DNA of 64,000 bases from Serratia grimesii NBRC 13537. Lineage in GTDB: Bacteria; Pseudomonadota; Gammaproteobacteria; Enterobacterales; Enterobacteriaceae. Positions 6,761 to 25,618 of the stretch are shown in pieces; position 1 is the stretch's first letter, and each line of letters opens with the position of its first letter. Both the position numbers and the translations under genes were made by a program. The stretch spans positions 1-64,000 of the forward strand of contig NZ_BCTT01000017.1 in assembly GCF_001590905.1 (NCBI RefSeq). Reading direction: 5' to 3'. Below the pieces are notes generated by a model. That model was given only the letters and a program-made list of their open reading frames with translations. It did not search any database and was not told the DNA's origin.

Positions 6761-6790
6761 CGGGAGGCGAAAGCCGCCCGTTTGTTTTAT
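6761..6790 (+). terminator. Rho-independent terminator after pgk
   Basis: CGGGAGGC-GAAA-GCCGCCCG hairpin followed by TTTGTTTTAT, 10 bp behind the pgk stop. The stem has a GNRA-type tetraloop and one bulged base. Confidence 0.75.
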
Positions 6791-6911: not shown

Positions 6912-7051
6912 ATACCGTGTGGCATAATGCGGCACGGCATGAAAAAATCGATTTACATCCATCTTTACCCAATAGATTTCAAGGTGTAGTCAACAGTGTT
7001 ACGGCTTGAGAAATAAAGGGTATAACGGCCAACGAAACAGGACAAAGTCAC

Positions 7052-8131: not shown

Positions 8132-8153
8132 TCTTGCCTGGCTGTTAGTCATA

Positions 8154-8180
8154 AAGGCTCCCTTCGGGGAGCCTTTTTTG
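8154..8180. terminator. Bidirectional terminator between fbaA and the DUF1345 gene
   Basis: AAGGCTCC-CTTC-GGGGAGCCTT followed by TTTT; an A-rich run on the left lets it also stop the convergent gene. Confidence 0.9.
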
Positions 8181-8183
8181 TTT

Positions 8184-8852: not shown

Positions 8853-9058
8853 AACGGACAGGTTCCTTGTCTTAATAAAGTGAGAGTGCTGTGTTCAGCA
8901 TAGAAGATGCCGGGCCGCCGTTTTGGCTATTTTTAGCGCTTACGCTTGGCATGCTGCGTGAATGTTGGTTAACCTAGGGCGGTGGTTTCCTACTGACATC
9001 TGATGTCGGTGTATTTTTGAGAGTTTATCCCTTTAGGGGCTGAGTTAGGACGACACGA

Positions 9059-9925
9059 ATGAAAGATCTGAACGTAGTAGATGGCATTAATGGTGCCGGT
9101 AACTGGCTTGTGCAGAACCAGGATTTATTGATTCAGTATGCAGTGAACATCGTTGCGGCGATCGTTATTTTCATCATCGGTTCGATCATTGCACGCGTAG
9201 TTAGCAATGCGGTAAACCGCGTGATGAAGCTGCGCGGTATCGATGCCACGGTAGCAGATTTCCTGTCGGCAATGGCGCGTTACGGCATTCTGGCCTTCAC
9301 CTTTATCGCTGTACTGGGGCGCGTTGGCGTACAGACCACCTCAGTGATCGCCGTGCTGGGTGCCGCCGGTTTGGCCGTGGGTCTGGCGCTGCAAGGCTCG
9401 CTGTCCAACTTCGCCGCAGGCGTGTTGCTGGTGGCCTTCCGTCCGTTGCGTGCCGGTGAGTATGTCGATTTGGGCGGCGTGGCCGGTACCGTCGACCAGG
9501 TGCAGATTTTCTCCACCACGCTGCGCACCGCAGACAACAAGACCATCGTCGTGCCGAATGGCAAAATTATCGCTGGTAACATCATCAACTATTCCCGCGA
9601 ACCAAACCGCCGTGTGGATATCGTGGTTGGCGTGGCGTATAACGCTGATATCGACGTGGTGAAAAAGGTTCTGGGTGACGTGATTGCTGCCGACAAGCGC
9701 ATCATGCACGCCAAAGGCGTGACCGTGCGTCTGAACGAGATGGCACCGTCTTCACTGAACTTTGTGACCCGCTCCTGGACCACAAATGCTGAATACTGGA
9801 ACGTGTACTTTGATCTGATGGAAAACTTCAAGCGCGCGCTGGATGCCAACAACATCGGCATTCCGTTCCCGCAGATGGATGTTCATCTGTACCGTACTGA
9901 GGAAGCTACCGCGAAAGCGGAATAA
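9059..9925 (+). CDS. mscS: Small-conductance mechanosensitive channel MscS
   Basis: Inner-membrane heptameric channel opened by membrane tension on hypo-osmotic shock. The 288-aa protein closely follows E. coli MscS (286 aa): N-terminal helices, the glycine/alanine-rich pore helix TM3 ([19 protein letters not shown]) around residues 95-115, then the beta domain [11 protein letters not shown]-type (here [16 protein letters not shown]) and the C-terminal alpha-beta cage. Start ATG 9059 is preceded by AGGA. Two hairpins with T-tracts follow the gene. Confidence 0.97.
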
Positions 9926-9937
9926 TGAATAATAGAG

Positions 9938-9961
9938 AAGGGGGCCAAGGCCCCTTTTTTT
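9938..9961 (+). terminator. Terminator after mscS
   Basis: GGGGCC-AA-GGCCCC stem with a run of seven T, 13 bp past the stop. Confidence 0.85.
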
Positions 9962-9968
9962 ATGGCTG

Positions 9969-10008
9969 GCCGAGTCGACATCACTGAGATGGCGGCTCGG
10001 CTTTTTTA
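9969..10008. terminator. Second hairpin with T-tract between mscS and the MFS gene
   Basis: GCCGAG and CTCGGC flank a 21-base loop and are followed by TTTTTT. It sits 5 bp from the end of the convergent MFS gene and may back up the mscS terminator. Confidence 0.55.
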
Positions 10009-10013
10009 TTGGG

Positions 10014-11363
10014 TCAGTTAGGTAATACAGAGCCAGACGCCCTTGTCCGGGGGCTCACACTAAGCCGATAGAGCAGGAAGATGGCGGCAGAGCCCACCAG
10101 CACCGGCAGCGCCAGCCAGATAAAGAACATCTCAGTAGAGCCTGAGGCGACAATCATCCAGGCACCGAGCATCGAGCCAATGATGGAGCCGAAGCGGCCG
10201 CTCGCCATTGCCCAACTGACCCCGGTTACGCGAGCTGCTGTGGGGTAGATAGTGGCAGAGACCAGGTTCAGGCCGTTCTGCGCGCCAGCCACACCAAAAC
10301 CGATAAGGAACACCGTGGCCGCCAGGGTGTAGACGTCCCCCATCAGGTAACCGGTGGCACCGACAACCAGCGCGGCACCCAGGTAGGACAGAGCAAGTAC
10401 CCGGTATGGCCCGACACGGTCCATCAGCAGCGCCATAAGGATGGCACCGAGAGTCCCGCCTAATGGCACCATCGCCCCAATGCGCGACGCCTGGACGATA
10501 TCGTAACCGACGTCCTTTAGAATGCTTGGTAGCCAACTGGTGAGCTGGTAAAAGACGAACAGCGAACAGAAAAACGCCACCCACAACAGCAGGGTGCGTA
10601 CTGCACGACCTTCTATAAACAGGTGCGATATCGGTGAATTGGCCTTTACTGGCCGTTCGTCATCGGCAATTGTCACACCTGCCCAGCTTTTGCCGGTGAT
10701 ACGCTCGACTACCTTACGCAAGTTATCGGCATGTTTCGGGCTGGAAGTCATAAAGCGAACTGATTCGGGCATTTGCCAGGCCAGCAACGGCAGCAACAGC
10801 AACGGCGCAATGCCACCGAGCATTAACACGCCACGCCAGCCGAAGGCAGGGATAATTTGTCCTGCGAGTATGCCGCCCAAAGCCAAGCCAGCGGTGAAGC
10901 CACTCCAACTCAGTGTGACCATGATCATCCTGCGACGTACCGGAGAGTATTCCGAACTGAGGGTGATGCAGGTGGGCATCGCACCACCTAAACCGATGCC
11001 GGTGATGAACCGCAGCAGGATCAACGACTCGATTGAATGGGTATACGCCGAGGCCAGGGTTCCCCCGCCAAAAATCAGTATCGAAACGAGCAGCACGCGT
11101 TTGCGGCCTATGGCATCGGCGACCGGACCGAATATCAGGCTGCCGATCAACAGACCAAACAATCCTGCACCAAAGGCAGGTGATAACTGTGCCGGCAACA
11201 ACTGCCACTCTTCGCGTAAGGCCGGGGCGATATAGCCGATGATTGCGGTATCAAAACCGTCCAGCAAGACGATCAGAAAACACAGAGTAAGAATCAGTAT
11301 CTGGTAAGGCGAGATCTTGGCGTTGTCGATGATCTCACTGATACGAGCGGTGTTTTGGCTCAT
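10014..11363 (-). CDS. MFS transporter, aromatic acid:H+ symporter type
   Basis: Inner-membrane proton symporter of 449 aa with about twelve transmembrane helices. The first helix carries DGFDTAIIGYIAPAL and the 2-3 loop GPVADAIGRKR, both characteristic of the AAHS subfamily (PcaK, MhpT, BenK). An RFITGIGLGGAMPT motif lies in the first half. The substrate is probably an aromatic or related carboxylate, but no catabolic enzyme for such a compound is adjacent. It is on the same strand as the GntR regulator, with a 270-bp gap. Start ATG 11363 has GTGGAA upstream. Confidence 0.85.
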   Translation of the reverse strand: MSQNTARISEIIDNAKISPYQILILTLCFLIVLLDGFDTAIIGYIAPALREEWQLLPAQLSPAFGAGLFGLLIGSLIFGPVADAIGRKRVLLVSILIFGGGTLASAYTHSIESLILLRFITGIGLGGAMPTCITLSSEYSPVRRRMIMVTLSWSGFTAGLALGGILAGQIIPAFGWRGVLMLGGIAPLLLLPLLAWQMPESVRFMTSSPKHADNLRKVVERITGKSWAGVTIADDERPVKANSPISHLFIEGRAVRTLLLWVAFFCSLFVFYQLTSWLPSILKDVGYDIVQASRIGAMVPLGGTLGAILMALLMDRVGPYRVLALSYLGAALVVGATGYLMGDVYTLAATVFLIGFGVAGAQNGLNLVSATIYPTAARVTGVSWAMASGRFGSIIGSMLGAWMIVASGSTEMFFIWLALPVLVGSAAIFLLYRLSVSPRTRASGSVLPN

Positions 11364-11633
11364 AAGAGTTCCACTTAATTAGGCTGGTGTGGAGCTGGCT
11401 GGAGGGCAGAGTAGGCGTCAGGTTCCTGTTGAAACGGGCCTGATCCAAAGCCGCTTTGGCTGGCATGGTGTAGATACCCGAGTATACATCAGAGCCAAGG
11501 GCTTGAGGCGATGTGACGGCTTACCCAGTGAGTTTTTACGTAAGGGGAAAGAAGAGAGCCAGCGCGCTGTATGACGAATTTGTAGTGGTTTGTATTTTGC
11601 CTGACACTCATAAGCTATTTCTTTCCGTGGCGT

Positions 11634-12281
11634 TCAACGAGTATGGCTTCTGATGAATTCTTTCAACATTTTTCCGGCAGCATTAATATGCTTAATTACT
11701 TCTCTACTTGCCACATCGGGGTTTCTCTGTCTGCAAGCAACTAAAATACTTGCATGATCATCCTGGAACTTACTCGTATTAGCCAGTAGCTGCCGTTGAA
11801 GATATTCGTATCTTTCTATCTGATTTCGCAATTCATCTATCATTGCCAGCAGTCGTTTGTTTTTACATCCACTATATAAAAGATGATGAAACTCATGATT
11901 ATATAACCCCTGTTTTTCAAAATCGGGGGTATTAGCGAGAAGTTTATGGGTGAGTTCAGCTCTCTCCAGAGTATCCATATCCAAGTTCTGCACGCTCTGA
12001 GAGATAGCATCTCCTTCTAACAAGGCTCGTAGCTGATAGATCTCGTCAATATCATCACATGAAAGCGTCCTGACGATAGCGCCACGGTTTCTAAAAATCT
12101 CAACCAGACCATCACGCTCCAGTTGCCTGATTGCCTCTCTCATCGGAATTCGGCTAACAGAAAAATGGCTGGCAAGCTCCCTCTCAACCAATCGTTCACC
12201 GTCTGGAAGGGTTCCGTTGTTAATCATCTTTCTTAACTCATCAGCAAGCATGCCCGCAGTTGATTGACCCGTCAGGTTCAT
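11634..12281 (-). CDS. GntR-family transcriptional regulator with FCD domain
   Basis: A 215-aa DNA-binding regulator. The N-terminal winged helix-turn-helix (about residues 8-75) includes ELASHFSVSRIPMREAIRQL, the classic GntR recognition region. The C-terminal helical FCD ligand domain follows, with histidines in NHEFHHLLY and HINAAGKM that could bind metal. ATG 12281 has AGGAGA five bases upstream. The gene is noticeably more AT-rich than its neighbours, suggesting acquisition. It probably controls itself, the divergent OsmC-like gene and perhaps the MFS gene; effector unknown. Confidence 0.87.
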   Translation of the reverse strand: MNLTGQSTAGMLADELRKMINNGTLPDGERLVERELASHFSVSRIPMREAIRQLERDGLVEIFRNRGAIVRTLSCDDIDEIYQLRALLEGDAISQSVQNLDMDTLERAELTHKLLANTPDFEKQGLYNHEFHHLLYSGCKNKRLLAMIDELRNQIERYEYLQRQLLANTSKFQDDHASILVACRQRNPDVASREVIKHINAAGKMLKEFIRSHTR

Positions 12282-12307
12282 AAATTTCTCCTTTATTTTA
12301 TGGTATA

Positions 12308-12319
12308 ATGGTATACCAT
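12308..12319. promoter_or_regulatory. Predicted operator of the GntR regulator
   Basis: ATGGTATACCAT is a perfect 12-bp palindrome fitting the FadR/FCD-type pattern T-N-GTATAC-N-A. A second half-site TGGTATA lies at 12301-12307. It is 27 bp from the GntR start and within the divergent region shared with the OsmC-like gene. Confidence 0.6.
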
Positions 12320-12405
12320 CTTGCGAGATGAGTCCAGAATCGCAGAAACAGGCAGGGCTCTATCACCAGAAAATCCATTGTTGTAACTGCTCAGGAGCAA
12401 TAGAA

Positions 12406-12873
12406 ATGGCCCATCGCGAACATCACTACCAAGTTAACGTTGAGTGGCAAGGCAACAAAGGTAGCGGCACAGAATCCTACAAAGCATATGATCGTAATTA
12501 TGAAATTACGGCAGGTGACAAACCCAGTATTTTAGGGTCATCGGATCCCGCGTTTCTGGGGGATGCCACTCGTTGGAATCCAGAGGATCTTCTTGTTGCT
12601 TCGGCATCTGCCTGTCACAAATTATGGTATCTGCATCTTTGTGCTGAAGCGGGGATAAGTGTTTGTACTTATATTGACCGGGCTGAGGGGACAATGCGTG
12701 AGGGGGAAAAAGGGTGTTTCACAGAAATTATTCTAAAACCTGAAATAACCATTCGACCAGGAGATGATATTAAACGTGCTCTGGATCTTCATCACCGCGC
12801 GCATGAGCTCTGTTTCATTGCTAACTCCCTTAATTTTCCGATTACCTGTCAACCGGTAATAACGCAAATGTGA
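12406..12873 (+). CDS. OsmC/Ohr family protein
   Basis: A 155-aa protein of the OsmC-like peroxidase fold. Two cysteines occupy the family's redox positions: Cys70 in ASASACHKLWYLHL and Cys136 in HELCFIANSLNFP. Members reduce organic hydroperoxides, though many OsmC relatives are uncharacterised. ATG 12406 was selected because AGGAG lies 8 bases upstream and the family N-terminus begins there; upstream in-frame codons have no ribosome site. Divergent from the GntR regulator, sharing its operator region. A strong inverted-repeat terminator follows. Confidence 0.85.
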   Translation: MAHREHHYQVNVEWQGNKGSGTESYKAYDRNYEITAGDKPSILGSSDPAFLGDATRWNPEDLLVASASACHKLWYLHLCAEAGISVCTYIDRAEGTMREGEKGCFTEIILKPEITIRPGDDIKRALDLHHRAHELCFIANSLNFPITCQPVITQM

Positions 12874-12904
12874 GAGCGATAAACCACCCATTGGGCATAA
12901 TTTG

Positions 12905-12938
12905 TTTTCACCAGATATCTCAAAACATCTGGTGAAAA
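12905..12938. terminator. Bidirectional terminator between osmC-like gene and sgbE
   Basis: TTTTCACCAGAT and ATCTGGTGAAAA form a perfect 12-bp inverted repeat around a 10-base loop, giving T-tracts on both strands. It closes the OsmC transcript and the long minus-strand catabolic operon. Confidence 0.8.
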
Positions 12939-12973
12939 CTATTCATACTGGAACTGAGGCCTGCCAACTCACT

Positions 12974-13675
12974 CTATTGCCCGTAGTAGGCATGCTTGCC
13001 GTGTTTGCGCAGATAATGTTTGTCCAGTAGCGCGGGTTGCATGCTGTTAATACCCGGCGTCAGCTGGCGCGAGAAAATCCCCATATAAGCAATTTCTTCC
13101 AGCACCACTGCATTATGCACCGCGCTATGCGCATCTTTGCCCCAGGCAAAGGGACCATGTGAATTGACCAGCACTGCCGGAATGGCATTTGGGTCGATGC
13201 CACGTCGATGGAAGGTGTCGATAATCACCTTGCCGGTTTCGAGTTCGTAATCATGCGCAATTTCGTCTTCGGTCATGAGGCGGGTGCAGGGAATCGCGCC
13301 GTAGAAGTAATCGGCGTGAGTGGTACCCCAGGCGGGAATATCCAGTCCGGCCTGCGCCCAGATGGTGGCGTGGCGTGAATGGGTATGTACGATGCCGCCG
13401 ATCTCAGCAAATTCACGGTATAGCGCCAGGTGGGTAGCGGTGTCTGAAGAGGGCTTTTTGTTACCCTCGACAGTTTGGCCGTTGGCGAGGCTGACCACCA
13501 CCATGTCCTCGGCCACCATATGTTCATATTCCACGCCGGAAGGCTTGATCACCACCAGCCCGCGTTCGCGATCCACTGCGCTCACATTGCCCCAGGTGAA
13601 GGTCACCAGATTGTGGCGCGGCAGGTCGAGGTTGGCTTCCAGTACCTGCTGTTTCAGTTGCGGCAGCGTTAGCAT
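12974..13675 (-). CDS. sgbE: L-ribulose-5-phosphate 4-epimerase
   Basis: Converts L-ribulose-5-phosphate to D-xylulose-5-phosphate, the exit of the pathway into the pentose phosphate route. The 233-aa protein belongs to the class II aldolase/AraD family; zinc ligands His97 and His99 sit in [11 protein letters not shown] and His173 in NSHGPFAWG. It is the last gene of the operon and overlaps sgbU by 7 bp. ATG 13675 gives the family start [11 protein letters not shown]; a longer frame upstream overlaps sgbU and is not credible. AraD and UlaF are close paralogues, so the symbol rests on context. Confidence 0.93.
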
Positions 13676-14529
13676 GTCATACCCCCTTGTTGCATTTTTT
13701 GTTCGATCCAACGACGTGCCTGTACGATTTCGGCCACCGGTTCTTCGGCTTTCTCGGTCCACATCTCGATCAGGAAAGCGCCGCGATAGTTAAGCTGTTT
13801 CAGCGTGCGGAATACCGCGACGAAGTCGACGCAGCCTTCGCCAAAGGGCACATCGCGGAACTGTCCCGGTGAGCTTTCAGTGACCGGATAGGTGTCTTTC
13901 AGATGGATGGCGGCGATGCGGTCAATACCCAGCGCCAGCTCCTGCGCCACGTCATTGCCCCAGGCGCTGAGATTGCCGACGTCCGGATAGACCGTGAACC
14001 ACGGCGATGCCAGGCAGGCGTCCCAGGCCTTCCATTTGCTGATCGAGTTCATAAATGCGGTGTCCATGATTTCCACCGCCAGCATCACCTGGGCGGCGGC
14101 GGCGCGTTCGACGGCCCATTGCATACCCTCGGTGAAGCGGGCGAGGGTGCTTTCGTCCTGTTGTTCGTAATAGACGTCATAACCGGCGAGCTGGATGGTG
14201 CGTATACCCACATCTTTTGCCAGTTGGATCGCCTGTTCCATCACCTCAAAGGCGCGTTGGCGCAGCGCATCGTCATGGCTGCCGAACGGAAAGCGGCGGT
14301 GGCCGGACAGGCACATCGACGGGATGCTGATGCCGGTTTCCAGCATGGCGCTGACCAGCGACAGCCGCTGTTCTTTGCTCCAGCTCAGGCGTGCCAGCCG
14401 ATCGTCGCTTTCATCCACCGACATTTCGACAAAATCAAAACCGCAGGCCTTGGCCAGTGCCAGACGCTCGGGCCAGGTCAGGTGTTTCGGCAAGGCTTTT
14501 TCATAAATTCCCAGTGGGTGCTGGCGCAT
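13669..14529 (-). CDS. sgbU: L-xylulose-5-phosphate 3-epimerase
   Basis: Epimerises L-xylulose-5-phosphate to L-ribulose-5-phosphate. A 286-aa TIM-barrel of the xylose-isomerase-like family; the expected metal ligands are visible in order: Glu in AVEIMDTAF, Asp in [11 protein letters not shown], His in IHLKDTYP and Glu in FLIEMWTE. Length equals E. coli SgbU. ATG 14529 starts [14 protein letters not shown], as in UlaE/SgbU. It overlaps sgbE at the 3' end and lies one base after sgbH, implying coupled translation. Confidence 0.94.
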
Positions 14530-14530
14530 A

Positions 14531-15187
14531 TCAACTTCTCCAGATGTCATCAATGACGGTGCGGAACTGACCGGCGGCGGCCAGTGGATCGGTAGCCTCC
14601 GCCAGCGCCCGGCCGACGATAAAAGCGGTGACGGCGATGTCTTTAAACAGCGATAGGTCAGTCGGTGTGATGCCGCCGGTGATCGACAGCTCAATGCCCA
14701 GATCCGACAGTGCTTTCATCAGATCCAAATCTTGTTGGCCCCAGGTTTGTCCGCTGGCCTGCGCGTCGCGGCCACGGTGGTAGATGGCCTGGCGGATGCC
14801 GAGTTCGCGCCACTGCCTGGCATCGTCCAGCGTCCAGCGGCCGAATAGCTCAATCTGGATCTCGCCCTGATGCTGTTGCGCTACCTCCTGCGCGCTGGCC
14901 ATGGTGGCTAACGGCGCGGCGCAGATCACCGTCATCCAGTTGGCACCGTGGCTGAAGGCCTGCTGCGCCAGCGTGCCACCGGCATCGGCTACTTTCAGAT
15001 CGGCCACCAGCGTATGTTGTGGGCAGCGTTCACGCAGCGCGCGCACCGCCTGAATACCGGCGCTGATGCATAAAATGGTGCCAGCCTCGATGATGTCGAC
15101 GTGCGGTTGCAGGCGTTCCGCCGTTTGCAGTGCGGCGTCCAGCCGGGTGTGATCGAGCGCCAGTTGCAGACGTGGTTTATGACTCAT
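14531..15187 (-). CDS. sgbH: 3-keto-L-gulonate-6-phosphate decarboxylase
   Basis: Decarboxylates 3-keto-L-gulonate-6-phosphate to L-xylulose-5-phosphate using Mg2+. A 218-aa beta/alpha barrel of the OMP-decarboxylase superfamily; [12 protein letters not shown] forms the first strand, DLKVADAGG the catalytic Asp-x-Lys-x-x-Asp motif near residue 62, and SITGGITP the phosphate-binding loop. It overlaps lyxK by 4 bp. UlaD is the paralogue in the anaerobic ascorbate pathway; the operon context favours SgbH. Confidence 0.94.
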
Positions 15188-16674
15188 AGGGCCTCCTTTT
15201 CGGTGGATTGCAGCGTTTGTAATGTCGCCACCAGTGCCTGATAACGGTGATATTTCTTACCGTAAGCTTCAGTGGCGGTGGCATCCGGCAGTACCCGTTC
15301 GATGCGCGGTGCCAGTGCCCGCTGGGCGGCGGTGAAATCGCTGAATGCGCCACTGCCGACCATCGCTGCCATGGCTGCACCTAAGCAGCCGGTTTCTTCT
15401 ACCTGCGGCAGTTCCACCGGCAGGCCGCTGACGTCGGCGAACATTTGCATCCAGGGAACGGATTTTGCCGGGCCGCCGGTGACGCGCAGGGCGGTGGCCG
15501 CAGGGAAGCGTTGCCGCATGCGGTTAAGGTGAGTCATATGGCAGAACACCACGCCTTCGTAGATCGCCTGCACCAGATGTTCGCGCTGGTGGAAGGCCTG
15601 CATGCCGTGGAAGCTGGCGCTTAGGCCCAGTCCGGCGTTGGAGCCGTACAGGAAGGGAACAAACAGCAGGCTGCTGTCGGCCTTCCGCAGCGTCGTCACC
15701 CAGTCATTGAGCTGGGCGTAGTCCTGAAGCCCCCATTGACGGCAGAACCACTCCAGATTGGCGGCAGAGGTTGGGCTGGCTTCGTGCACAATGTATTTGC
15801 CGGCTTCGGCGTGGCGACCATAAACAAACGGGTGGTCGCAACCTTCGGTGATTTTGTCGGTAATGCCGCTGGTAACCGACCAGGTGCCCATCACCGCATT
15901 GAGCCGCGTCTCGTCGTGTAACCCGGCGCACAGTGCGGTGGACACCACATCGAACAGCCCGCCGACTACTGGCGTTCCCGCTAATAGCCCTGTTGCCGTC
16001 GCAGCGGCGGCATTGATCCGCCCGGCGATGTCGACCGAGCCAACAATGGGTGGCAGTGCTGGCATGATGTCGCCGATGCCTAGCAGTTGCGCCAGGGCCG
16101 GGTCATAGCAACCGTCTGCCATGTGGTAAAGATTGGATTCGGAGATATTGGTTTCTTCACAGGCTAGCTCGCCGGTCAGGCAGTAGCGCAGGTAATCGTG
16201 CGCCATCAGCACGCTGCCGATCTGGCGATAACGTTCCGGCTGGTGTTGCCGAACCCAGCGCAGCAGCGACACCGGGTGACCGGTCCACAGTGTTTGCCGG
16301 GTCTGCGGATACAGCCGCTGTGGCACGCCCTGTTTTTGCCATTCCTGTACCAGCGTCAGTGCACGCTGATCAGAAGACAGCATGGCATTGCCCAGTGGCT
16401 GTCCTTGCTTGTCCAGCAGAAACGCGCCTTTGCCCTGCGCCGAGATGCCGACGGCCTGAATATCACTGGCAGCAATGTTGTTGCGAGCCAGCAACTCGCG
16501 GATCACCTCGGCAGCGGTATGCCATAGAGCTGGCATATCCCGTTCCGCCCAACCCGGTTGGGGCGAGATAATTTCCATGTTGCGCCGGGCGATACCCAAC
16601 TCAGTTCCCTGACGGTCATACAGCCCGGCCTTGATAAAGGTGCCGCCGCAGTCCAGCCCCAGCCAATAGTCCAT
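15184..16674 (-). CDS. lyxK: L-xylulokinase / 3-keto-L-gulonate kinase
   Basis: FGGY-family sugar kinase of 496 aa. The N-terminal GLDCGGTFIKAGLYD phosphate-binding loop and the C-terminal RVTGGPAKS ATP-site motif are present. In E. coli LyxK phosphorylates L-xylulose and supplies 3-keto-L-gulonate-6-phosphate for SgbH. ATG 16674 overlaps the stop of the preceding transporter (TAATG); a longer frame from 16701 would run into that gene. The position between the transporter and sgbH matches yiaP in Klebsiella. Confidence 0.93.
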   Translation of the reverse strand: MDYWLGLDCGGTFIKAGLYDRQGTELGIARRNMEIISPQPGWAERDMPALWHTAAEVIRELLARNNIAASDIQAVGISAQGKGAFLLDKQGQPLGNAMLSSDQRALTLVQEWQKQGVPQRLYPQTRQTLWTGHPVSLLRWVRQHQPERYRQIGSVLMAHDYLRYCLTGELACEETNISESNLYHMADGCYDPALAQLLGIGDIMPALPPIVGSVDIAGRINAAAATATGLLAGTPVVGGLFDVVSTALCAGLHDETRLNAVMGTWSVTSGITDKITEGCDHPFVYGRHAEAGKYIVHEASPTSAANLEWFCRQWGLQDYAQLNDWVTTLRKADSSLLFVPFLYGSNAGLGLSASFHGMQAFHQREHLVQAIYEGVVFCHMTHLNRMRQRFPAATALRVTGGPAKSVPWMQMFADVSGLPVELPQVEETGCLGAAMAAMVGSGAFSDFTAAQRALAPRIERVLPDATATEAYGKKYHRYQALVATLQTLQSTEKEAL

Positions 16675-17969
16675 TATTCGGCCCTCGCGCTTTGGTCGCA
16701 TTTATTCGGCAGCATCAGCGCCAACACCGACGCAATGGCCAGTGATACCGCCAGGCTGTAAACGCCGACATCTTTGCTGAACAGGCTGATCAATACGCCG
16801 ACCATATAAGGGCCGCAGAACCCCCCCAGGTTGCCCAGCGCGTTGATCACACCGCGTGCACCACCGGCCACTTCAGCATTGAAAAGTTTGGGCGGAATGG
16901 TCCAGAACACCCCGGCGGCGGCCTGAATGAAGACCCCACAGCCGACCAACGCGGCATAGGACCACCAGATGTGATCTTTCAACAGCACCGACAACGCCAT
17001 GCAGATGGCGAAGCAGGCCAGCGGTAGCGCGACGAAGATTTTGCGTTTACCGGTACGATCGGAGAGTGAGGAAATCACCAGCATGCCGAAGATGGCGCCG
17101 ATGTAGGGCAGGATCGCCAGCATCCCCACCTGTTCCATATTGCCGTTGGTCAGCCCCTTGAGGATGGTTGGCAGCCACAAGGTGTAGCCGTAAATTCCGG
17201 TCTGGTAGAAGAAGTTCACCAGGATCAGCTGCCACATGATCTTGTCGCCCAGCACCCGGCGTAGCGAGGCATTGCGCACCGTTTTGCCCTTGATCAGCAG
17301 TTGTTCGTCATGCAGTGTTTTGATCAGATAGTCCCTTTCCGCTGCTGAAATCCACTTGGCTTCCTGCGGGCGGTTGCTGATGGTGAAGTACCACAGCACC
17401 ATCACCACCAGCGACAGCGCGCCTTCCACCAGGAACAACATGCGCCAGTCCCAGACGGTGATGATCCAGCCGGACAGCGGGGCGGTGAGAATACCGGCGA
17501 TGGGGACGAACATGATGACGATGGCGTTGGCGCGGCCGCGCTCCTTGTCCGGGAACCAGTTGCTGATCATGGTCAGCACCACCGGCAGCATGCCGCCCTC
17601 GGAGACGCCCAAGGCAAAGCGCAGGAACAGCAGTTGGTACTGGTTACTGACCAACCCGGTCAGCACTGAAATCACCGCCCAGGCCAGCAGTGACCAGCCG
17701 ATGAATTTTTTGCCGTTGCCGTACACTGCCAGCTTGCCGCCGGGCACCTGTAGGAACAGATAACCAATAAAGAAGATGCCGCCGGCCAGACCGGCCATCG
17801 AAGCGGTGATACCCAGTTCGGCATCCATACCACCAGGCATGGCGAAGGCGATATTTACCCGGTCCATATAGGAAATGATGCAGGTAATAAGAATCGGCGG
17901 CACGATTCGCAACCAACGTAATTTGGGGATCGCCTGGTTTTGGCTAACGGAAACAGAGGCAATATTCAT
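16674..17969 (-). CDS. MFS transporter of the anion:cation symporter family (YiaX2-like)
   Basis: A 431-aa inner-membrane permease with about twelve helices. YMDRVNIAFAMPGG in the first helix and LGVSEGGMLPVVLTM in helix 4-5 are typical of the ACS family (sugar acid transporters such as GudP, DgoT). It replaces the TRAP transporter yiaMNO of the E. coli operon; Klebsiella carries an MFS gene (yiaX2) in this place. Probable cargo is a sugar acid such as 2,3-diketogulonate or 3-ketogulonate (inference). Its stop overlaps lyxK by one base. Confidence 0.87.
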   Translation of the reverse strand: MNIASVSVSQNQAIPKLRWLRIVPPILITCIISYMDRVNIAFAMPGGMDAELGITASMAGLAGGIFFIGYLFLQVPGGKLAVYGNGKKFIGWSLLAWAVISVLTGLVSNQYQLLFLRFALGVSEGGMLPVVLTMISNWFPDKERGRANAIVIMFVPIAGILTAPLSGWIITVWDWRMLFLVEGALSLVVMVLWYFTISNRPQEAKWISAAERDYLIKTLHDEQLLIKGKTVRNASLRRVLGDKIMWQLILVNFFYQTGIYGYTLWLPTILKGLTNGNMEQVGMLAILPYIGAIFGMLVISSLSDRTGKRKIFVALPLACFAICMALSVLLKDHIWWSYAALVGCGVFIQAAAGVFWTIPPKLFNAEVAGGARGVINALGNLGGFCGPYMVGVLISLFSKDVGVYSLAVSLAIASVLALMLPNKCDQSARAE

Positions 17970-18076
17970 ATATACACCTGTAGGGTCAGATTTTATTGTT
18001 TTGGTGGTTTAAGGCGCAGGGGCACCCGCACAGGCCCGAAGGCCCATGTTGTTGATCGTTATAAAATCAGCGTTGC

Positions 18077-19562
<1,486 letters not shown>

Positions 19563-19604
19563 GCTGATTCTCCGCTACGGCGCATTTGTTTGTTTTGTGT
19601 TCTT

Positions 19605-19635
19605 TAAATTTCATTATGCGAAATCGCATTTCAAA
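19605..19635. promoter_or_regulatory. Predicted YiaJ-type operator at the yiaK promoter
   Basis: A 31-bp block identical at 26 of 31 positions to 24502-24532 upstream of the ABC operon. Its core GAAAT-CGC-ATTTC (19620-19632) is an inverted repeat resembling IclR-family sites. It lies 3 bp downstream of the predicted -10 box, where a repressor would overlap the transcription start. Confidence 0.65.
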
Positions 19636-19638
19636 TAA

Positions 19639-19667
19639 ATGCTATACCTGCGTTTAAACGAAGTCAA
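19639..19667 (-). promoter_or_regulatory. Predicted sigma-70 promoter of yiaK
   Basis: On the minus strand -35 TTGACT (19662-19667), 17-bp spacer, -10 TAGCAT (19639-19644), followed directly by the operator. A weak CRP-like sequence (TGTGA, six bases, GCACG) at 19726-19741 lies roughly 100 bp upstream of the presumed start. Confidence 0.5.
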
Positions 19668-19817
19668 AGCGACGGGAGAGAAAGTTATTTATATAAAACA
19701 GTGTGTTAAATTAACTTGATGAATTTGTGATCGACGGCACGTTTTGGGCCGTTGGCGTGCTTCAGACGTGGCAAAGCAGAGCGGAACAGGCCCGCTCTGC
19801 GAACATCATTTTCCCCG

Positions 19818-20678
19818 TTATCCGCGAGTATTCAGTACGATGCGGTATAACGAAGTGGTGGCGGTAATGTACAACTCATTACCGCCCGGCCCGCCGAAAG
19901 TGCAGTTAGAGACGCGTTCTGGCACCTCAATCTTACCGAGCTGTTTTCCTTGGCTGTCGAAGATCAGCACTCCTTCTGCACAGCTGCAAAACAAATTACC
20001 GGCTTTATCGACACAGAAGCCGTCCGGGAAGCCTGGTGTCACGCAGGTAAAGCGCCGACCGGCATCCAGTTCACGCCCGTTGACCGAATACACTCGCAGT
20101 TCACTGCGTCCAAGCGTGGGGAAGTCGACAATCGACATGTCTGCCACATACAGCAGAGACTCATCCGGTGAGAACGCCAGGCCATTTGGTCGCTGTAGAT
20201 CACTGGCGGCAATGTTCAGTGAGCCGTCACGCGGATCAAAGCAGTAGAGGTAGCAGCCAATCACCTGGCTTTCCGACTTATAGCCCTCTTCGTCACCGGT
20301 AATGCCGTAGGGGGGATCGGTAAACCAGATTGTGCCGTCGGAACGCACCGCCAGATCATTGGGGGAGTTGAAACGCTTGCCGTCGACCCGATCGATCAGC
20401 ATCTGCACTTCGCCGTTATGGTCGGTTCGGCTGATGCCGCGCCGACCGTGCTCGCAACTGATCACTCGGCCTTCAGCATCACGTGCATTGCCGTTGGCAT
20501 AGTGAGACGGGGAGCGCCAAAGGCTGAGCTCCCCCTGTCGCGACCAGCGGAACATGCGGTTGCCCTTCACATCGCTGAACACCACGGCATCCTGTTGCGG
20601 CAGCCACACCGGCCCCTCGGCCCAGATGGCCGGTGAGCACAGGCGTTCAAGCTGATGGTCTGCCATCAGTTCATTCAT
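19818..20678 (-). CDS. SMP-30/gluconolactonase family lactonase
   Basis: A 286-aa six-bladed beta-propeller of the SMP-30/regucalcin type, which hydrolyses sugar lactones using a divalent metal. Metal-site motifs are visible: Glu in AEGPVWLP, Asn in NSPNDLAVRSDG, Asn in RPNGLAFSPD and Asp in YVADMS. No signal peptide, so cytoplasmic. GGAGG precedes ATG 20678. It is the last gene of the ABC operon, 12 bp after the binding protein, and lies upstream of yiaK on the same strand. The substrate is inferred to be a lactone imported by the ABC system. Confidence 0.88.
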   Translation of the reverse strand: MNELMADHQLERLCSPAIWAEGPVWLPQQDAVVFSDVKGNRMFRWSRQGELSLWRSPSHYANGNARDAEGRVISCEHGRRGISRTDHNGEVQMLIDRVDGKRFNSPNDLAVRSDGTIWFTDPPYGITGDEEGYKSESQVIGCYLYCFDPRDGSLNIAASDLQRPNGLAFSPDESLLYVADMSIVDFPTLGRSELRVYSVNGRELDAGRRFTCVTPGFPDGFCVDKAGNLFCSCAEGVLIFDSQGKQLGKIEVPERVSNCTFGGPGGNELYITATTSLYRIVLNTRG

Positions 20679-20690
20679 GCTGACCTCCGC

Positions 20691-21791
20691 TTACTTCACA
20701 CCCCAGATGGCTTTGTAGTGACCTTGATAATCATTCTGCGGGTCATACAGGTTGTTGCTGCCACCATCGGCAGTAATATTGTCGCGGGTTACCAGATGCG
20801 CCGGAGTGACATAACCGGAAGGCGGTTGCTTGGCAAAGGCGCGGTTAAATTCATCCAGCAGTTGCCAGCCGTGCAATTTGAGCGGTTCCGGCACCGTGGC
20901 TGACTGGCTGCCGCCGGAGCGGATGCGTTGATAGGCGGAAATAGAGCCATCACCAGCAGAAATACTGTAGGGGGCATTTTTGCCGCCTTTACCGGCAGTT
21001 TTCAGGGCGGGCGCCATAAAATCAAAATACAGATCGTTAATGGCCAGTGCGTACTGGAACTGATCGCCGTATTTTTGCAGCAAGCTGAAGGTCATGGCCG
21101 GCATACGGTTGGCGGTATCCGCCAGCGGGGTGTCGATAAACTCGATCACCTTACAACCGCTGCATTTACCGATTTCCTCTTTCATCACGTTGGCCTTGTC
21201 CAGCGCGATTTGGTATAGCGAATCGGTAAAGATCAACACATTGGCCTTACCGCCGGACTGGACAACGGCATATTGGGCAGCAATACGTGCCACGTCGTTG
21301 GAGTCAGAAGTGACGTTATAAAACACGTTATATTTGGCGATCGGCCCCGGTTCCGGTACTGCGTGCCAGGCGGTGAGTATGATGCCCTGCTGAATAGCCT
21401 TTTTCAGCGGGATCTTGGCCACGTTGGGGTTCCAACCACCGATCACGATGCCATCCGGTTTCTGGGCGATTGCCTGATTCAGCGACGCCAGCTGATCTTT
21501 CACCGAGCCGCCGCCATCCAGGGTTTCCAGTTTCCACCCGGCCGCTTTTGCTGCTTCACTTAGTCCTTCCTGCACTCCCTGCACACCGCCGTTTTTCATG
21601 TCTGATGCAATAAAGATGATTTTCTTATTGACCTGCAATTTTGGCCCGCTGGTGGGGCCATCCCACTGGGTTACGCTGGCGGTGGCTTTGGCAACGGCCG
21701 CCGTGGCCTGCTCGAGATAGGCATCGGCCCAGGCGGGGGAGACGGTGCTGGCCAGCAGCAGGGTTGTGGGTAATATCCAAAGACGTTTCAT
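20691..21791 (-). CDS. Sugar ABC transporter periplasmic binding protein
   Basis: A 366-aa type 1 periplasmic binding protein (RbsB/Peripla_BP_4 class). Signal peptide at residues 1-22, cleavage after AWA. The KIIFIASDMKNGGVQGVQEG strand and GIVIGGWNP motif mark the sugar-binding fold. It is longer than RbsB (about 296 aa) and has a CSGC motif in the middle, a possible disulfide. It lies 15 bp after the permease gene. Ligand unknown; context suggests a sugar acid, lactone or ketose. Confidence 0.88.
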   Translation of the reverse strand: MKRLWILPTTLLLASTVSPAWADAYLEQATAAVAKATASVTQWDGPTSGPKLQVNKKIIFIASDMKNGGVQGVQEGLSEAAKAAGWKLETLDGGGSVKDQLASLNQAIAQKPDGIVIGGWNPNVAKIPLKKAIQQGIILTAWHAVPEPGPIAKYNVFYNVTSDSNDVARIAAQYAVVQSGGKANVLIFTDSLYQIALDKANVMKEEIGKCSGCKVIEFIDTPLADTANRMPAMTFSLLQKYGDQFQYALAINDLYFDFMAPALKTAGKGGKNAPYSISAGDGSISAYQRIRSGGSQSATVPEPLKLHGWQLLDEFNRAFAKQPPSGYVTPAHLVTRDNITADGGSNNLYDPQNDYQGHYKAIWGVK

Positions 21792-21806
21792 TCGGTGAGC
21801 TCCTGG

Positions 21807-22889
21807 TTAAGGATTGATCGCTTTTGGGTTATTTTTATCAGCCGTGGTGGCTGGAGTGCGTTGTACCGCTTTTTGGTTGAGCAACCGGCGGCGCTGGGCA
21901 TAGCCCGCCAGAGTGATGGACAGCAGCAGTGTTGCGCCGTTGAACAGCGGTTCGACCCAGAATTCACCGCCGAACTGCTGAATACCGGCAATGCCGATGG
22001 CAAGAATGGCGATACCGACCACGGTACCCCAGACGTTAACCCGACCGGGGCGGATGGTGGTGCTACCGAGGAAAGCGCCGACCAGCGCCGGTAACAGGTA
22101 ATCCATACCGACGCTGGCTTGACCCACGCCCTGTTCGGCGGCGATCAGTACACCGCTAAAACCGGTCAGTACGCTGGAGGCAATAAAGGCACCGATAGTA
22201 AAGCGATTGACCGAAATACCGTTCAGCCGCGCTGCTGCCGGGTTGCCACCGACAGCGTACATACAACGACCCAGCGGAGTGTGTTCAGTGATCAACCACA
22301 GTACGATGGCGACGATCAGTACGTAGAATGCCACGATCGGGATCCCGCCGATCTCGGTATGGTGCAGAGCGATAAAGGCGTCGGGTAGATCGCCGACGAT
22401 CTGCCGGCCGCCGGAATGCCACAGGGCTATGGCATACAGCACGGTGCCGGATCCAAGAGTCGCAACAAAGCTGTCAATATCCGCCAGTGCGACCAGAATC
22501 CCGTTCAACAGGCCGTACAACGCAGAGATCGCGAGTACGGTTAGCACCGCCATCTGCCATGAAAAACCGTATTCCACCTGTAATGTAATAGCCAGGATAT
22601 GCCACAGCACGATGCCGAAGCCGACATTAAGGTCAATTTTCCCGACGATCATCGGGATGGTTGCCGCCAGTGCCAACAGAGCGATCTTGGCCTTACTGGA
22701 GAGGATCGCTTGCAGTGTTAGCATCGACGCGAACGACGGTGTTATCAGTGAAAACAAGATCACCAGCGCAATGCACAGCAGCAGCAGGCCGTAGCGGGTA
22801 AGGATCTGCATCAGCCACGGGCCGGTACCGTCTTGTGACAGGCTGACTCTTTGCTCCAGTGCTGTTGATTTAACCGATGTTTTAGACAT
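21807..22889 (-). CDS. Sugar ABC transporter permease (RbsC-like)
   Basis: A 360-aa inner-membrane protein with 8-10 hydrophobic helices of the ribose/branched-chain permease family. KIALLALAATIPMIVGKIDLNVG and VGGNPAAARLNGISV are signature stretches of RbsC-type permeases. The N-terminal 30 residues are hydrophilic and cytoplasmic. The start overlaps the ATPase gene by 8 bp. It forms the channel through which the binding protein delivers its ligand. Confidence 0.9.
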   Translation of the reverse strand: MSKTSVKSTALEQRVSLSQDGTGPWLMQILTRYGLLLLCIALVILFSLITPSFASMLTLQAILSSKAKIALLALAATIPMIVGKIDLNVGFGIVLWHILAITLQVEYGFSWQMAVLTVLAISALYGLLNGILVALADIDSFVATLGSGTVLYAIALWHSGGRQIVGDLPDAFIALHHTEIGGIPIVAFYVLIVAIVLWLITEHTPLGRCMYAVGGNPAAARLNGISVNRFTIGAFIASSVLTGFSGVLIAAEQGVGQASVGMDYLLPALVGAFLGSTTIRPGRVNVWGTVVGIAILAIGIAGIQQFGGEFWVEPLFNGATLLLSITLAGYAQRRRLLNQKAVQRTPATTADKNNPKAINP

Positions 22890-24438
22890 GGCCCACCTCA
22901 GATTCTAACGTTGTCACGAGCGTTTCCCCGGCGCTGGCAGAAGCCAGTTCCAATAAATTGGCGAATGACACCTGCTGATTTTTCAGCTCGCCGACTACTT
23001 TTCCCCGGTTAAACACCAGTGCGCGGTTGCAGATATGGGCGATCTCCTCAAAGTCGTTGGAGATCACCAATACAGCCACGCCTTCCTCCAGGGATTTATT
23101 TAACAGATGATAGATTTCAGCCCGTGCACCAACGTCTACGCCAGCAGTAGGGTCTTCCAGGATCAGCAACGGAGCGCCCAGGTGCATCCAGCGCGCCATC
23201 ACTACCTTTTGTTGGTTACCGCCGGACAGGGCGCTGATATCGATATTGACGTCCTTGGGTCGCACGTCGAACAATTGTACTTTCCACCAGCTGGCGCCGA
23301 TCTCGGCCCGGCGACTGTAGCGTGACAGCAGCTTGTGGCCGCTGGCACAGGGGTTGATAAACAGGTTTTCACGCACGCTCATCGACATCACCAGGCTCTC
23401 GCCGGTGCGATCGCCCGCGACCAGCGATACGCCGCAAGCCATGGCTTGTTGGGGGCTTCTGGCGGTGTAGCTTTGGTCGCGAAAACGGATTTCGCCCTCA
23501 TCAGCGTGGCGCAGGCCGAACAGCAACCGGCCAATTTCTTCCTGCCCGGCGCCGCGTAGGCCTGCCAGTGCCAACATTTCGCCAGGTTGCAGATTGAAGC
23601 TGACCGGGCCGATATCGCCCACCGTTACCTTATTGAGCTGCAATACAGGTGGTCGATTTTCTGGCAAGGGTTCGCGCTGATCGTCCGCCATGGCTTCACC
23701 TACGATCATCTGCACCAGATCACGCAGTGAGTAGTCGGCGGTATTACCACCTGCTACGTAGCGCCCGTCACGCATGACACAGACCCGGTCGGCAATTTCG
23801 ATCACTTCGTCCAGTCGGTGGGTGACGTAAATCATGCCGACCTTTTTGTCACGCAGCCGGTTAATCACTGCGAACAAGTGGCGTACGTCGTTGGCGGGCA
23901 GCGAGGCGGTGGGTTCATCCAGCACCAGCAGTTCGGCGTTAACCGCCACGGCACGGGCTATCGCCAGCAACGATTTTTCAGTGCGCGACAGTTCGAATAC
24001 TCTGGCATCGGGATCCAACGCTATGCCGACATCCTGAAGTGCCTGAACAGCACTGCGGCGGATAGCACGCCAGTCGATCAGGCCGAAGCGGCGTGGAAAA
24101 CCCATCACCATCGCCATGTTTTCCGCTACCGTCATCCATTCGATCAGCCCAAGATCCTGATGAATAAAGGCAATAGGCTGGCGGCTGTCACTTTTTATCG
24201 CTGCGGCGGAGGCTATGCTGGCCCCTTGAAACTGGATGTCGCCGCTATCGCGTGGGTAAACCCCGGCCAGCACTTTGATCAGTGTCGATTTGCCTGCGCC
24301 ATTTTCGCCCAGCAGGGCCAGCACTTCACCTGGCATCACCTGCAGGCTCACGTCATTCACGGCGACGTTGCCGCCAAAGCGTTTAACAATATGGCTGAGG
24401 GTAAGGATGGGTTGTTCCGCATTATCTGGTGTTGTCAT
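22882..24438 (-). CDS. Sugar ABC transporter ATP-binding protein, duplicated (RbsA-like)
   Basis: A 518-aa fusion of two nucleotide-binding domains. Domain 1 has Walker A GENGAGKST at residues 44-52 and LLVLDEPTASL; its signature loop reads LSRTEKSLLAIARA rather than LSGGQ. Domain 2 has a degenerate Walker A (GLRGAGQEE), a good signature LSGGNQQKV and LILEDPTAGVD. This asymmetry is normal for RbsA-type importers. ATG 24438 has AGGGGC upstream; ATG 24462 has no ribosome site. First gene of the ABC-lactonase operon. Confidence 0.9.
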   Translation of the reverse strand: MTTPDNAEQPILTLSHIVKRFGGNVAVNDVSLQVMPGEVLALLGENGAGKSTLIKVLAGVYPRDSGDIQFQGASIASAAAIKSDSRQPIAFIHQDLGLIEWMTVAENMAMVMGFPRRFGLIDWRAIRRSAVQALQDVGIALDPDARVFELSRTEKSLLAIARAVAVNAELLVLDEPTASLPANDVRHLFAVINRLRDKKVGMIYVTHRLDEVIEIADRVCVMRDGRYVAGGNTADYSLRDLVQMIVGEAMADDQREPLPENRPPVLQLNKVTVGDIGPVSFNLQPGEMLALAGLRGAGQEEIGRLLFGLRHADEGEIRFRDQSYTARSPQQAMACGVSLVAGDRTGESLVMSMSVRENLFINPCASGHKLLSRYSRRAEIGASWWKVQLFDVRPKDVNIDISALSGGNQQKVVMARWMHLGAPLLILEDPTAGVDVGARAEIYHLLNKSLEEGVAVLVISNDFEEIAHICNRALVFNRGKVVGELKNQQVSFANLLELASASAGETLVTTLESEVGHV

Positions 24439-24501
24439 GTGATGCGCCCCTGGTGCCTGCATACGCGATCGGCGTGTGCGAATTGGTGTTTATATCATCA
24501 T

Positions 24502-24532
24502 TAAATTTCAACATGCGAAATTCAATTTCAAA
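24502..24532. promoter_or_regulatory. Predicted YiaJ-type operator at the ABC operon promoter
   Basis: Second copy of the 31-bp operator seen before yiaK (26 of 31 identical). Core GAAAT-TCA-ATTTC at 24517-24529 keeps the inverted repeat although the spacer differs, which suggests selection on the arms. It is one base downstream of the predicted -10. Confidence 0.65.
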
Positions 24533-24533
24533 A

Positions 24534-24562
24534 ATAATATGCCGAACGCCGATCTAAAGCAA
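24534..24562 (-). promoter_or_regulatory. Predicted sigma-70 promoter of the ABC-lactonase operon
   Basis: Minus strand -35 TTGCTT (24557-24562), 17-bp spacer, -10 TATTAT (24534-24539), followed by the operator: the same layout as the yiaK promoter. Confidence 0.55.
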
Positions 24563-24582
24563 AGCCAGAGGTGTTTTAATTA

Positions 24583-24596
24583 TTGTTTTAAAACAA
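24583..24596. promoter_or_regulatory. Perfect palindrome in the yiaJ-ABC divergent region
   Basis: TTGTTTTAAAACAA is a perfect 14-bp palindrome about 20 bp upstream of the ABC -35 box. It could be a further regulator site or simply an AT-rich curve; it has no counterpart at yiaK. Confidence 0.35.
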
Positions 24597-24799
24597 ATGG
24601 TTATTTATCTCTTTGCGGAATTGTGACGTATAACTCACTTCGGAAGTTAGCGAAATGTTGCGCATTTTTAACCCGCTACGGACAATGAAACGGCGTTCCG
24701 TCTTCACCTGATGCGGGCCTTGGGGTAACATTCTTGGCAAAGAGCCCGTTTACTACGCCGTGGCGTTGGCTGGCGGCTCGATACTGGAGAAATTGCGCT

Positions 24800-25618
24800 A
24801 TGAGCCTGAAAGCTGTCGACGAGAAAGATGACAAGAAAGACAAACCCTTGGGCAGCCAAAGCCTGTTCCGTGGTTTGCAACTGATTGAGATCCTGAGCAA
24901 CTTCCCTAACGGCTGCCCACTGGCGCACCTGTCTGAGCTGGCCGGCATGAACAAAAGCACTGTCCATCGTTTGCTGCAAGGGCTGCATACCAGCGGTTAT
25001 GTCACCCAGGCACCTTCGCCCGGCAGTTATCGACTGACCACCAAGTTTATTTCTGTCGGGCAAAAGGCGCTTTCTTCGCTGAATATCATCCATGTTGCTG
25101 CGCCCCATCTGGAACAGCTCAATCTGGAAGTCGGGGAGACGGTAAACTTCTCCAGCCGCGAAGATGATCATGTCATTTTGATCTACAAGCTGGAGCCGAC
25201 GACTGGCATGATGCGTACCCGTGCCTATATTGGCCAGCATATGCCGCTGTATTGCTCGGCGATGGGCAAGATTTTTATGGCCTACGGCAACAGTGATTAT
25301 CCCGATCACTATTGGCAGACACATCAGCATGAAATCCAGACGCTAACGCGCAATACCATCACCGAACTGCCAAAGATGTATGACGAACTGGCCGATATTC
25401 GTCTGCGCGGCATGGCAATGGATCGTGAAGAGAATGAGCTGGGTGTATCCTGCGTGGCGGCACCGGTGTTCGATATCCAGCAACGGGTTCCCTACGCCGT
25501 ATCCGTTTCGTTACCCACCGCCAAACTGCAACAGATTGGTGTTAATGCCTTGATTAAACCCGTGTTGGCGACCGCCCAACGCATTTCTCAAGAGCTGGGG
25601 TTTGTCATTCCTGCCTAG
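24800..25618 (+). CDS. yiaJ: IclR-family repressor of the yia regulon (YiaJ/PlaR-like)
   Basis: A 272-aa IclR-type regulator: N-terminal winged helix (about residues 20-80) and C-terminal effector domain. Stretches such as GSQSLFRGL, NGCPLAHLSELAG and LNIIHVAAPHLE match E. coli YiaJ (PlaR), the repressor of yiaK-S, over almost the whole length. ATG 24800 has GGAGA upstream; the longer frame from 24734 lacks one. It is divergent from the ABC operon, whose promoter carries an operator shared with yiaK, so it most likely represses both. Confidence 0.92.
   Translation: MSLKAVDEKDDKKDKPLGSQSLFRGLQLIEILSNFPNGCPLAHLSELAGMNKSTVHRLLQGLHTSGYVTQAPSPGSYRLTTKFISVGQKALSSLNIIHVAAPHLEQLNLEVGETVNFSSREDDHVILIYKLEPTTGMMRTRAYIGQHMPLYCSAMGKIFMAYGNSDYPDHYWQTHQHEIQTLTRNTITELPKMYDELADIRLRGMAMDREENELGVSCVAAPVFDIQQRVPYAVSVSLPTAKLQQIGVNALIKPVLATAQRISQELGFVIPA

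Follow-up and report, generated by a model that had tools for sequence, protein, structure and literature searches.

A yia-type gene cluster in a 64,000-nucleotide window of the Serratia grimesii NBRC 13537 genome (contig C17 of a 5.07-Mb, 40-contig genome; coordinates follow window numbering) combines the genes of the keto-gulonate pathway with an ATP-binding cassette (ABC) importer and an SMP-30/gluconolactonase-family lactonase; this module is real and conserved, and it represents a variation on the known yia pathway. The association was seen in Enterobacterales, Pasteurellaceae, betaproteobacteria, and Pleomorphomonas. On the whole, we lean toward reading the cluster as a YiaJ-controlled regulon for scavenging oxidized vitamin C, in which the ABC importer would bring in dehydroascorbate. 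An earlier note on this DNA had proposed that the ABC-lactonase genes and yiaK act as one regulon that takes up a lactone or neutral sugar, opens the ring, and feeds the keto-gulonate route; this is supported in outline by a shared operator-like element, by co-occurrence within the genus, by the coupling of the lactonase to the ABC importer, and by an association that spans several bacterial classes. The features concerned are as follows.

24800..25618, plus strand: yiaJ/plaR ortholog, IclR-family repressor, 272 amino acids (aa); 76% identity to E. coli PlaR, IclR_C and HTH_IclR domains, start checked
24505..24529, plus strand: YiaJ/PlaR-type operator-like element in the ABC promoter, beside a -10-like TATTAT read by eye
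22882..24438, minus strand: abcA, ATPase of the ABC importer, CUT2 type, two ABC domains, 518 aa (family profiles, frame check)
21807..22889, minus strand: permease of the ABC importer (BPD_transp_2), 360 aa (family profiles, frame check)
20691..21791, minus strand: periplasmic substrate-binding protein (Peripla_BP_4), 366 aa (family profile, structure comparison)
19818..20678, minus strand: SMP-30/gluconolactonase-family lactonase, 286 aa (family profile, alignment)
19608..19632, plus strand: second YiaJ/PlaR-type operator-like element, in the yiaK promoter, beside a promoter-like match TTGACT-17-TAGCAT
18564..19562, minus strand: yiaK, 2,3-diketo-L-gulonate reductase (NCBIfam equivalog; 75% to E. 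coli YiaK)
18077..18550, minus strand: yiaL, YhcH/YjgK/YiaL family (family profile; 49% to E. coli YiaL)
16674..17969, minus strand: major facilitator superfamily (MFS) transporter, occupying the Klebsiella YiaX2 position (family profiles)
15184..16674, minus strand: lyxK, FGGY kinase, L-xylulose/3-keto-L-gulonate kinase (62% to E. coli LyxK)
14531..15187, minus strand: sgbH, 3-keto-L-gulonate-6-phosphate decarboxylase (NCBIfam equivalog, 394 bits)
13669..14529, minus strand: sgbU, L-xylulose-5-phosphate 3-epimerase (NCBIfam: L-ribulose-5-phosphate 3-epimerase; 77% to E. coli SgbU)
12974..13675, minus strand: sgbE, L-ribulose-5-phosphate 4-epimerase (75% to E. coli SgbE)

The importer, the lactonase, and yiaK travel together. 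A comparative search in the genus, as the earlier note had suggested, found the module in 19 of 30 genomes, and the same 19 genomes, and no others, have the element, the binding protein, and a YiaK over the cut-off. In an order-wide sample of 394 genomes, 11 encoded a binding protein with 67% identity or more, and all 11 had YiaK over the cut-off, versus 40 of the 394 overall. Of the 389 loci found in a scan of named genomes, the top 80 by similarity to the window's binding protein were examined, so that the counts favor close kin; yiaK was present in 65 of these 80 loci, and all 65 carried an SMP-30 gene. The converse was examined with 20 fetched of the 26 order-sample genomes that have YiaK and lack an importer-type binding protein: no lactonase was found in any of their 20 yiaK clusters (fetched stretches of 14 to 20 kb), and two of these genomes have a 45% sensor-type binding-protein homolog elsewhere. 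The lactonase goes with the ABC importer, not with MFS or tripartite ATP-independent periplasmic (TRAP) transporters. This coupling, 65 of 65 against none of 20, speaks against a separate function in which the importer supplies LyxK and SgbUE with a pentose or pentulose (L-xylulose, L-lyxose), the lactonase being unrelated, as do three betaproteobacterial loci (L103, L105, and L112) in which the ABC importer and lactonase accompany yiaK while lyxK is missing from the locus; we consider such a function quite improbable, although E. coli LyxK is annotated as an L-xylulose kinase and the importer is of a sugar type.

Among the 65 yiaK loci, the recognized carriers were ABC plus MFS in 39, ABC plus TRAP in 15, and ABC alone in 11; an MFS gene is present in the neighborhood of L052 and L081. 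The expanded yia regulon of the earlier note is real, yet it is neither a Serratia specialty nor a replacement of the MFS or TRAP carrier, being widespread and additive: loci in other taxa rule out the former, and the retention of MFS in 39/65 and TRAP in 15/65 loci rules out the latter. Chance adjacency is likewise ruled out, by recurrence over several bacterial classes together with the shared element. A genome search for YiaK covered 18 loci, namely, the 15 of 80 without yiaK plus L103, L105, and L112. Elsewhere in the genomes of L085, L104, and L114, a strong YiaK was detected, and in that of L067 a weaker one (392 bits); in L085 (Prodigiosinella), SgbH lies near the distant yiaK. L056 (Serratia sp. 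Ag1) has only the three ABC genes between flanking genes known from other Serratia, a state that looks like decay.

Regulation points in the same direction. The element, ATTTC-N7-GAAAT-N3-ATTTC on the plus strand, occurs exactly twice in the genome, once before the ABC genes and once before yiaK, compared with about 0.004 occurrences expected per genome from base composition. Because the pattern was derived from the window's own two sites, independent support comes from other genomes and from the E. coli gap. The element is present in 19 of the 30 same-genus genomes (own genome included), with one or two sites each, and every listed site is no more than a few kilobases from the binding-protein gene; a reversed-pattern control gave no match in any of the 30. 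The E. coli plaR-yiaK gap holds the element with one mismatch, and a published PlaR box lies in this gap, overlapping the yiaK promoter (excerpts of PMC6958661); the two are placed in the same gap by position, not by a letter-by-letter mapping. Across the named loci, the element (at most two mismatches) was found before abcA in 48/79 and before yiaK in 35/65, versus 13 of 400 random segments, which came from the same loci and possibly overlap true sites. Loci with the element before abcA include L067, L070, L085, and L096, where yiaK is not adjacent. When up to three mismatches were allowed, the 1.6 Mb searched contained 65 matches outside the two promoters, and L056, L093, L102, L103, L105, and L127 to L131 had none anywhere. 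Many of the abcA loci without the element are from betaproteobacteria or from Pasteurellaceae, whose abcA is internal to the operon. Promoter-like matches in the region showed no excess (9 versus 8.5 in shuffles).

In the window, yiaJ diverges from the ABC genes and yiaK is preceded by its own copy of the element, which lies in the 255 bp separating the lactonase gene from yiaK. This arrangement suggests that the ABC-lactonase genes and the yiaK operon are probably two transcription units, and both are probably under one YiaJ-type repressor, so that the module would be coregulated.

In E. coli, the roles of YiaK, SgbHUE, and PlaR are established. For the Serratia cluster, we propose that the CUT2 importer takes in dehydro-L-ascorbate, a neutral lactone, and that ring opening by the SMP-30 lactonase then yields 2,3-diketo-L-gulonate; YiaK would convert this to 3-keto-L-gulonate, LyxK would phosphorylate the product, SgbH would decarboxylate it to L-xylulose-5-phosphate, and SgbU with SgbE would epimerize the latter to D-xylulose-5-phosphate. 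The MFS transporter (TRAP in other bacteria) may take in diketogulonate already opened outside the cell, and the two units would be induced together; we infer the ligand, the lactonase reaction, the MFS role, and the induction. Since the lactonase is tied to the ABC importer, its product would most simply be the substrate of YiaK, 2,3-diketo-L-gulonate, and dehydroascorbate, as the lactone of that compound, would be the likeliest import. Dehydroascorbate in water is mostly a hemiketal hydrate (excerpts of PMC11066805), and this sugar-like hydrated form is plausible as the ligand of a sugar-type importer. For the TRAP transporter YiaMNO, open-chain 2,3-diketo-L-gulonate is a reported ligand (excerpts of PMC4324149 and PMC7660916); a ligand that is already open means that the TRAP route would need no ring-opener. 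Whether a dehydroascorbate importer and a dehydroascorbate lactonase make up a complete route free of the phosphotransferase system (PTS), extending from Enterobacterales to Pleomorphomonas and to some large Pantoea plasmids, is in our judgment an evenly balanced question.

The importer has the CUT2 layout, with a fused two-domain ATPase, a BPD_transp_2 permease, and a Peripla_BP_4 binding protein. It shares this layout with Rbs, Xyl, Ara, and YtfQRT, but its proteins fall far below the equivalog cut-offs of these named systems and form an unassigned clade: the ATPase scored at best 408 versus a cut-off of 850 (YtfR; best 25 of 189 families), the permease 117 versus 398, and the binding protein 25 versus 342. 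The lactonase belongs to the SGL family (157 bits versus a cut-off of 26.3), its alignment profile matches structure 3dr2 at 2e-85, and its closest solved relatives, 3dr2 and 3e5z, carry a gluconolactonase annotation. Glu21, Asn165, and Asp219 are invariant in 34/34 aligned sequences; we take them as putative metal ligands, probable counterparts of human Glu18, Asn154, and Asp204, by motif and not by superposition.

The phylogeny brings in relatives that bear on the identity of the ligand. In a maximum-likelihood tree of 98 binding proteins, rooted at the midpoint (the terms "sister" and "related" depend on that rooting), a single clade of 80 (support, 100/97) takes in all yia-type loci together with loci that lack yiaK. 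The neighboring clade of 10 (99/88) includes idonate-type clusters: an L-idonate-5-dehydrogenase-like protein, a 2-hydroxyacid dehydrogenase, a short-chain dehydrogenase/reductase (SDR), and a gluconokinase are all encoded in L165, L167, L168, and L171, some of them in L129, L131, and L170, and none within the stretch examined in L127, L128, and L130; SMP-30 lies within the stretch in 6 of the 10 loci. The idonate dehydrogenase of L165 scored 375 bits, below the equivalog cut-off of 469. The alphaproteobacterial clusters L165 and L167 resemble the Serratia module in their binding protein (49 to 52%) and SMP-30 (45 to 48%) but carry the idonate-type set and LacI instead of yia genes. Within the clade of 80, L106 (candidate division KSB3, 6058-14561) has an importer at 71% and no SMP-30 in the locus; about 1.3 kb downstream of the importer, with one opposite-strand gene between, lies an equivalog of the ascorbate-6-phosphate lactonase UlaG (483 bits versus a cut-off of 306; 52% to E. 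coli UlaG). The locus also encodes L-threonate-dehydrogenase-like and 3-hydroxyacyl-CoA-dehydrogenase-like proteins, both below cut-off, and possibly represents another vitamin C route.

With the idonate clade and the UlaG neighbor among them, these relatives keep L-ascorbate itself a strong rival as the ligand. In that case, the lactonase would yield 3-keto-L-gulonate (or its 2-keto tautomer) for LyxK, and YiaK would serve only diketogulonate brought in by the MFS or TRAP carrier; the related clade, with its 2-hydroxyacid dehydrogenase and L-idonate-5-dehydrogenase-like protein, would possibly start from 2-keto-L-gulonate. Ascorbate is also a PlaR effector in E. coli (excerpts of PMC6958661), and the lack of a detectable ula system in the S. 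grimesii genome would fit direct uptake. On the other hand, the opening of ascorbate gives keto-gulonate directly, so that YiaK would be idle on that branch, but yiaK is kept in all 11 loci where ABC is the only recognized transporter, three of them without lyxK; ascorbate is, moreover, an anion, which is less usual for CUT2 importers. Weighing these points, we regard import of L-ascorbate as unlikely.

A comparable standing, still on the unlikely side, is given to another C6 aldonolactone or keto-aldonolactone (e.g., L-gulono- or L-idonolactone), which the lactonase would open and a host dehydrogenase would join to the pathway. Gulono-, glucono-, and xylonolactone are known substrates of SMP-30 enzymes, the related clade is of the idonate type, and Rouxiella has the module without a YiaK over the cut-off. 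Against this, no gulonate or idonate dehydrogenase was recognized as a regular member of the yia clusters (most neighbors were clustered, not identified), and the enzyme retained alongside the lactonase in 65/80 loci is YiaK, whose substrate is a 2-keto acid.

Several findings weigh against dehydroascorbate as the ligand and against the regulon as we describe it, in addition to the bias of the scan toward close kin. The L106 UlaG neighbor and the idonate clade fit L-ascorbate equally well. SMP-30 enzymes act on many aldonolactones, and dehydroascorbate opens spontaneously, which would make the lactonase useful and not strictly needed. Solved structures offer only remote relatives of the binding protein. 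The element is absent (more than three mismatches) before abcA in 28/79 loci and before yiaK in 9/65, and the minimal clusters L103, L105, and L112 are among the loci without it. For 11 of the 80 loci, the host genome has no YiaK over the cut-off, and several of these genomes are metagenome bins. Rouxiella (L070 and L096) has YiaJ, the element, the ABC genes, and the lactonase, but the search of its genomes yielded neither a YiaK over the cut-off nor an SgbH; in Hafnia psychrotolerans, the only YiaK is a weaker one (392 bits), and the SgbH is at 47%. YiaMNO is also reported to carry L-xylulose (excerpts of PMC4324149).

The search for an ascorbate PTS in this genome found neither EIIC-GAT nor UlaG, and thus no ula system; as positive controls, UlaG (89 to 90%) was detected in 8/30 and EIIC-GAT in 26/30 same-genus genomes. 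In Klebsiella, ascorbate-6-phosphate is reportedly the inducer, with the ula and yia systems both needed (by the title of a 2008 work of Campos). Among the 19 module-bearing genus genomes, UlaG is present in 4, while 15, the S. grimesii genome included, show none. In a genome without Ula, some inducer other than ascorbate-6-phosphate is likely, and how the module is switched on in these 15 genomes becomes a regulatory question. In E. coli, PlaR was released from the yiaK promoter in vitro by ascorbate and galacturonate, and yiaK promoter activity was raised in vivo (excerpts of PMC6958661). The idea that the module substitutes for Ula was unsupported, as UlaG occurs in 4/19 genomes with the module and in 4/11 without it.

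Extracellular vitamin C oxidizes to dehydroascorbate and then opens to diketogulonate. To our knowledge, the bacterial routes so far recognized are ascorbate via the PTS and diketogulonate via TRAP. If the proposed function is correct, a dedicated uptake system and lactonase for the intermediate would close the gap between these routes and would give plant- and animal-associated bacteria access to dehydroascorbate in air; many annotations of the "sugar ABC transporter" and "SMP-30" kind would become one testable prediction. Among the best-ranked open-license PMC articles (titles and abstract starts), we recognized no description of a yia cluster that combines an ABC importer and an SMP-30 lactonase, and none of a bacterial dehydroascorbate importer.

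The minus-strand cluster 24438..12974 contains 11 intact genes, all with open frames and ATG starts, and includes lyxK, sgbH, sgbU, and sgbE in order; the genes and strands named in the earlier note were all recovered by family profiles and comparison with E. coli K-12. Starts were corrected for yiaJ (24800), yiaL (18550), lyxK (16674), sgbU (14529), and sgbE (13675), and abcA probably starts at 24438. YiaK (622 bits versus a cut-off of 316) and SgbH (394 versus 294) are NCBIfam equivalogs, SgbU and SgbE exceed NCBIfam subfamily and equivalog cut-offs, and LyxK reached no NCBIfam equivalog cut-off. The nearest named relatives of the binding protein are from Serratia proteamaculans, S. liquefaciens, and S. 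quinivorans.

Compared with E. coli yiaKLMNOPQRS, the cluster shares orthologs of YiaJ (76%), YiaK (75%), YiaL (49%), LyxK (62%), SgbH (67%), SgbU (77%), and SgbE (75%), as well as the element with one mismatch. The E. coli K-12 locus bears out the earlier statement that it has TRAP YiaMNO and no lactonase; it also lacks the ABC genes, whereas the Serratia cluster consists of two element-bearing units and has the MFS gene instead of yiaMNO, the search for which was confined to the cluster. Klebsiella yiaKLX1X2PQRS (gene order from excerpts of PMC4324149) has an MFS gene at the YiaX2 place and otherwise the same enzymes, but the Serratia cluster lacks a YiaX1-like gene and adds the ABC importer and lactonase. 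All four components, a YiaX1-like gene, MFS, ABC, and lactonase, occur together in Raoultella, Kosakonia, Phytobacter, and Enterobacter (L094 and L097 to L100), where the YiaX1-like gene of L100 is a DUF4862 gene. The MFS protein is 75 to 76% identical to the MFS of four clusters with a 308- to 309-aa gene at the YiaX1 position. The ulaABCDEFG system has in common the keto-gulonate-phosphate end route and a lactonase but imports by PTS with phosphorylation, and UlaG has a metallo-beta-lactamase fold.

Variants of the module extend from reduced to remote forms. The minimal unit of L103, L105, and L112 comprises YiaJ, YiaK, ABC, lactonase, and an SDR, and the best SgbH match in these genomes is at most 31%. 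The remote family f12 (three genomes), which falls within the clade of 80, has one cluster with the importer, yiaK, TRAP, sgbE, lyxK, sgbH, an IclR regulator, sgbU, and transaldolase; its yia and ABC proteins are 31 to 63% identical to the reference proteins. The lactonase was found in two of the three genomes (the contig of the third ends there), and transaldolase was checked in two and transketolase identified in one. Three Pantoea plasmid records carry the ABC-lactonase-yiaK stretch, and the annotation of one Pantoea agglomerans plasmid (L166; 586,810 bases) covers the entire regulon.

Outside both clades, L169 (Leisingera) forms a long branch, and its annotation shows neither yia nor idonate genes. 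Deeper branches, at 42 to 47% to the binding protein (L137 [10432-14021], L138, L139, L141, L143, L140, and L142), adjoin HAMP-GGDEF or HAMP-GGDEF-EAL proteins (domains checked in L137, L139, and L140), with no importer genes recognized. Because of this pairing with GGDEF/EAL proteins, these distant homologs are probably periplasmic sensors driving cyclic di-GMP (c-di-GMP) signaling.

Some neighboring genes were also noted. L132 has a HAD-family hydrolase, a transaldolase, and a transketolase in or beside its yia cluster, and L135 has a transaldolase; by similarity cluster, L111, L115, and L120 have a transketolase in or beside theirs. In Rouxiella L070 and L096, a second sugar ABC operon stands beside the module. 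Adjoining the S. grimesii cluster, window positions 10014-12873 encode an MFS transporter, a GntR/FCD regulator, and a divergent OsmC-like protein, with no exact copy of the operator-like element.

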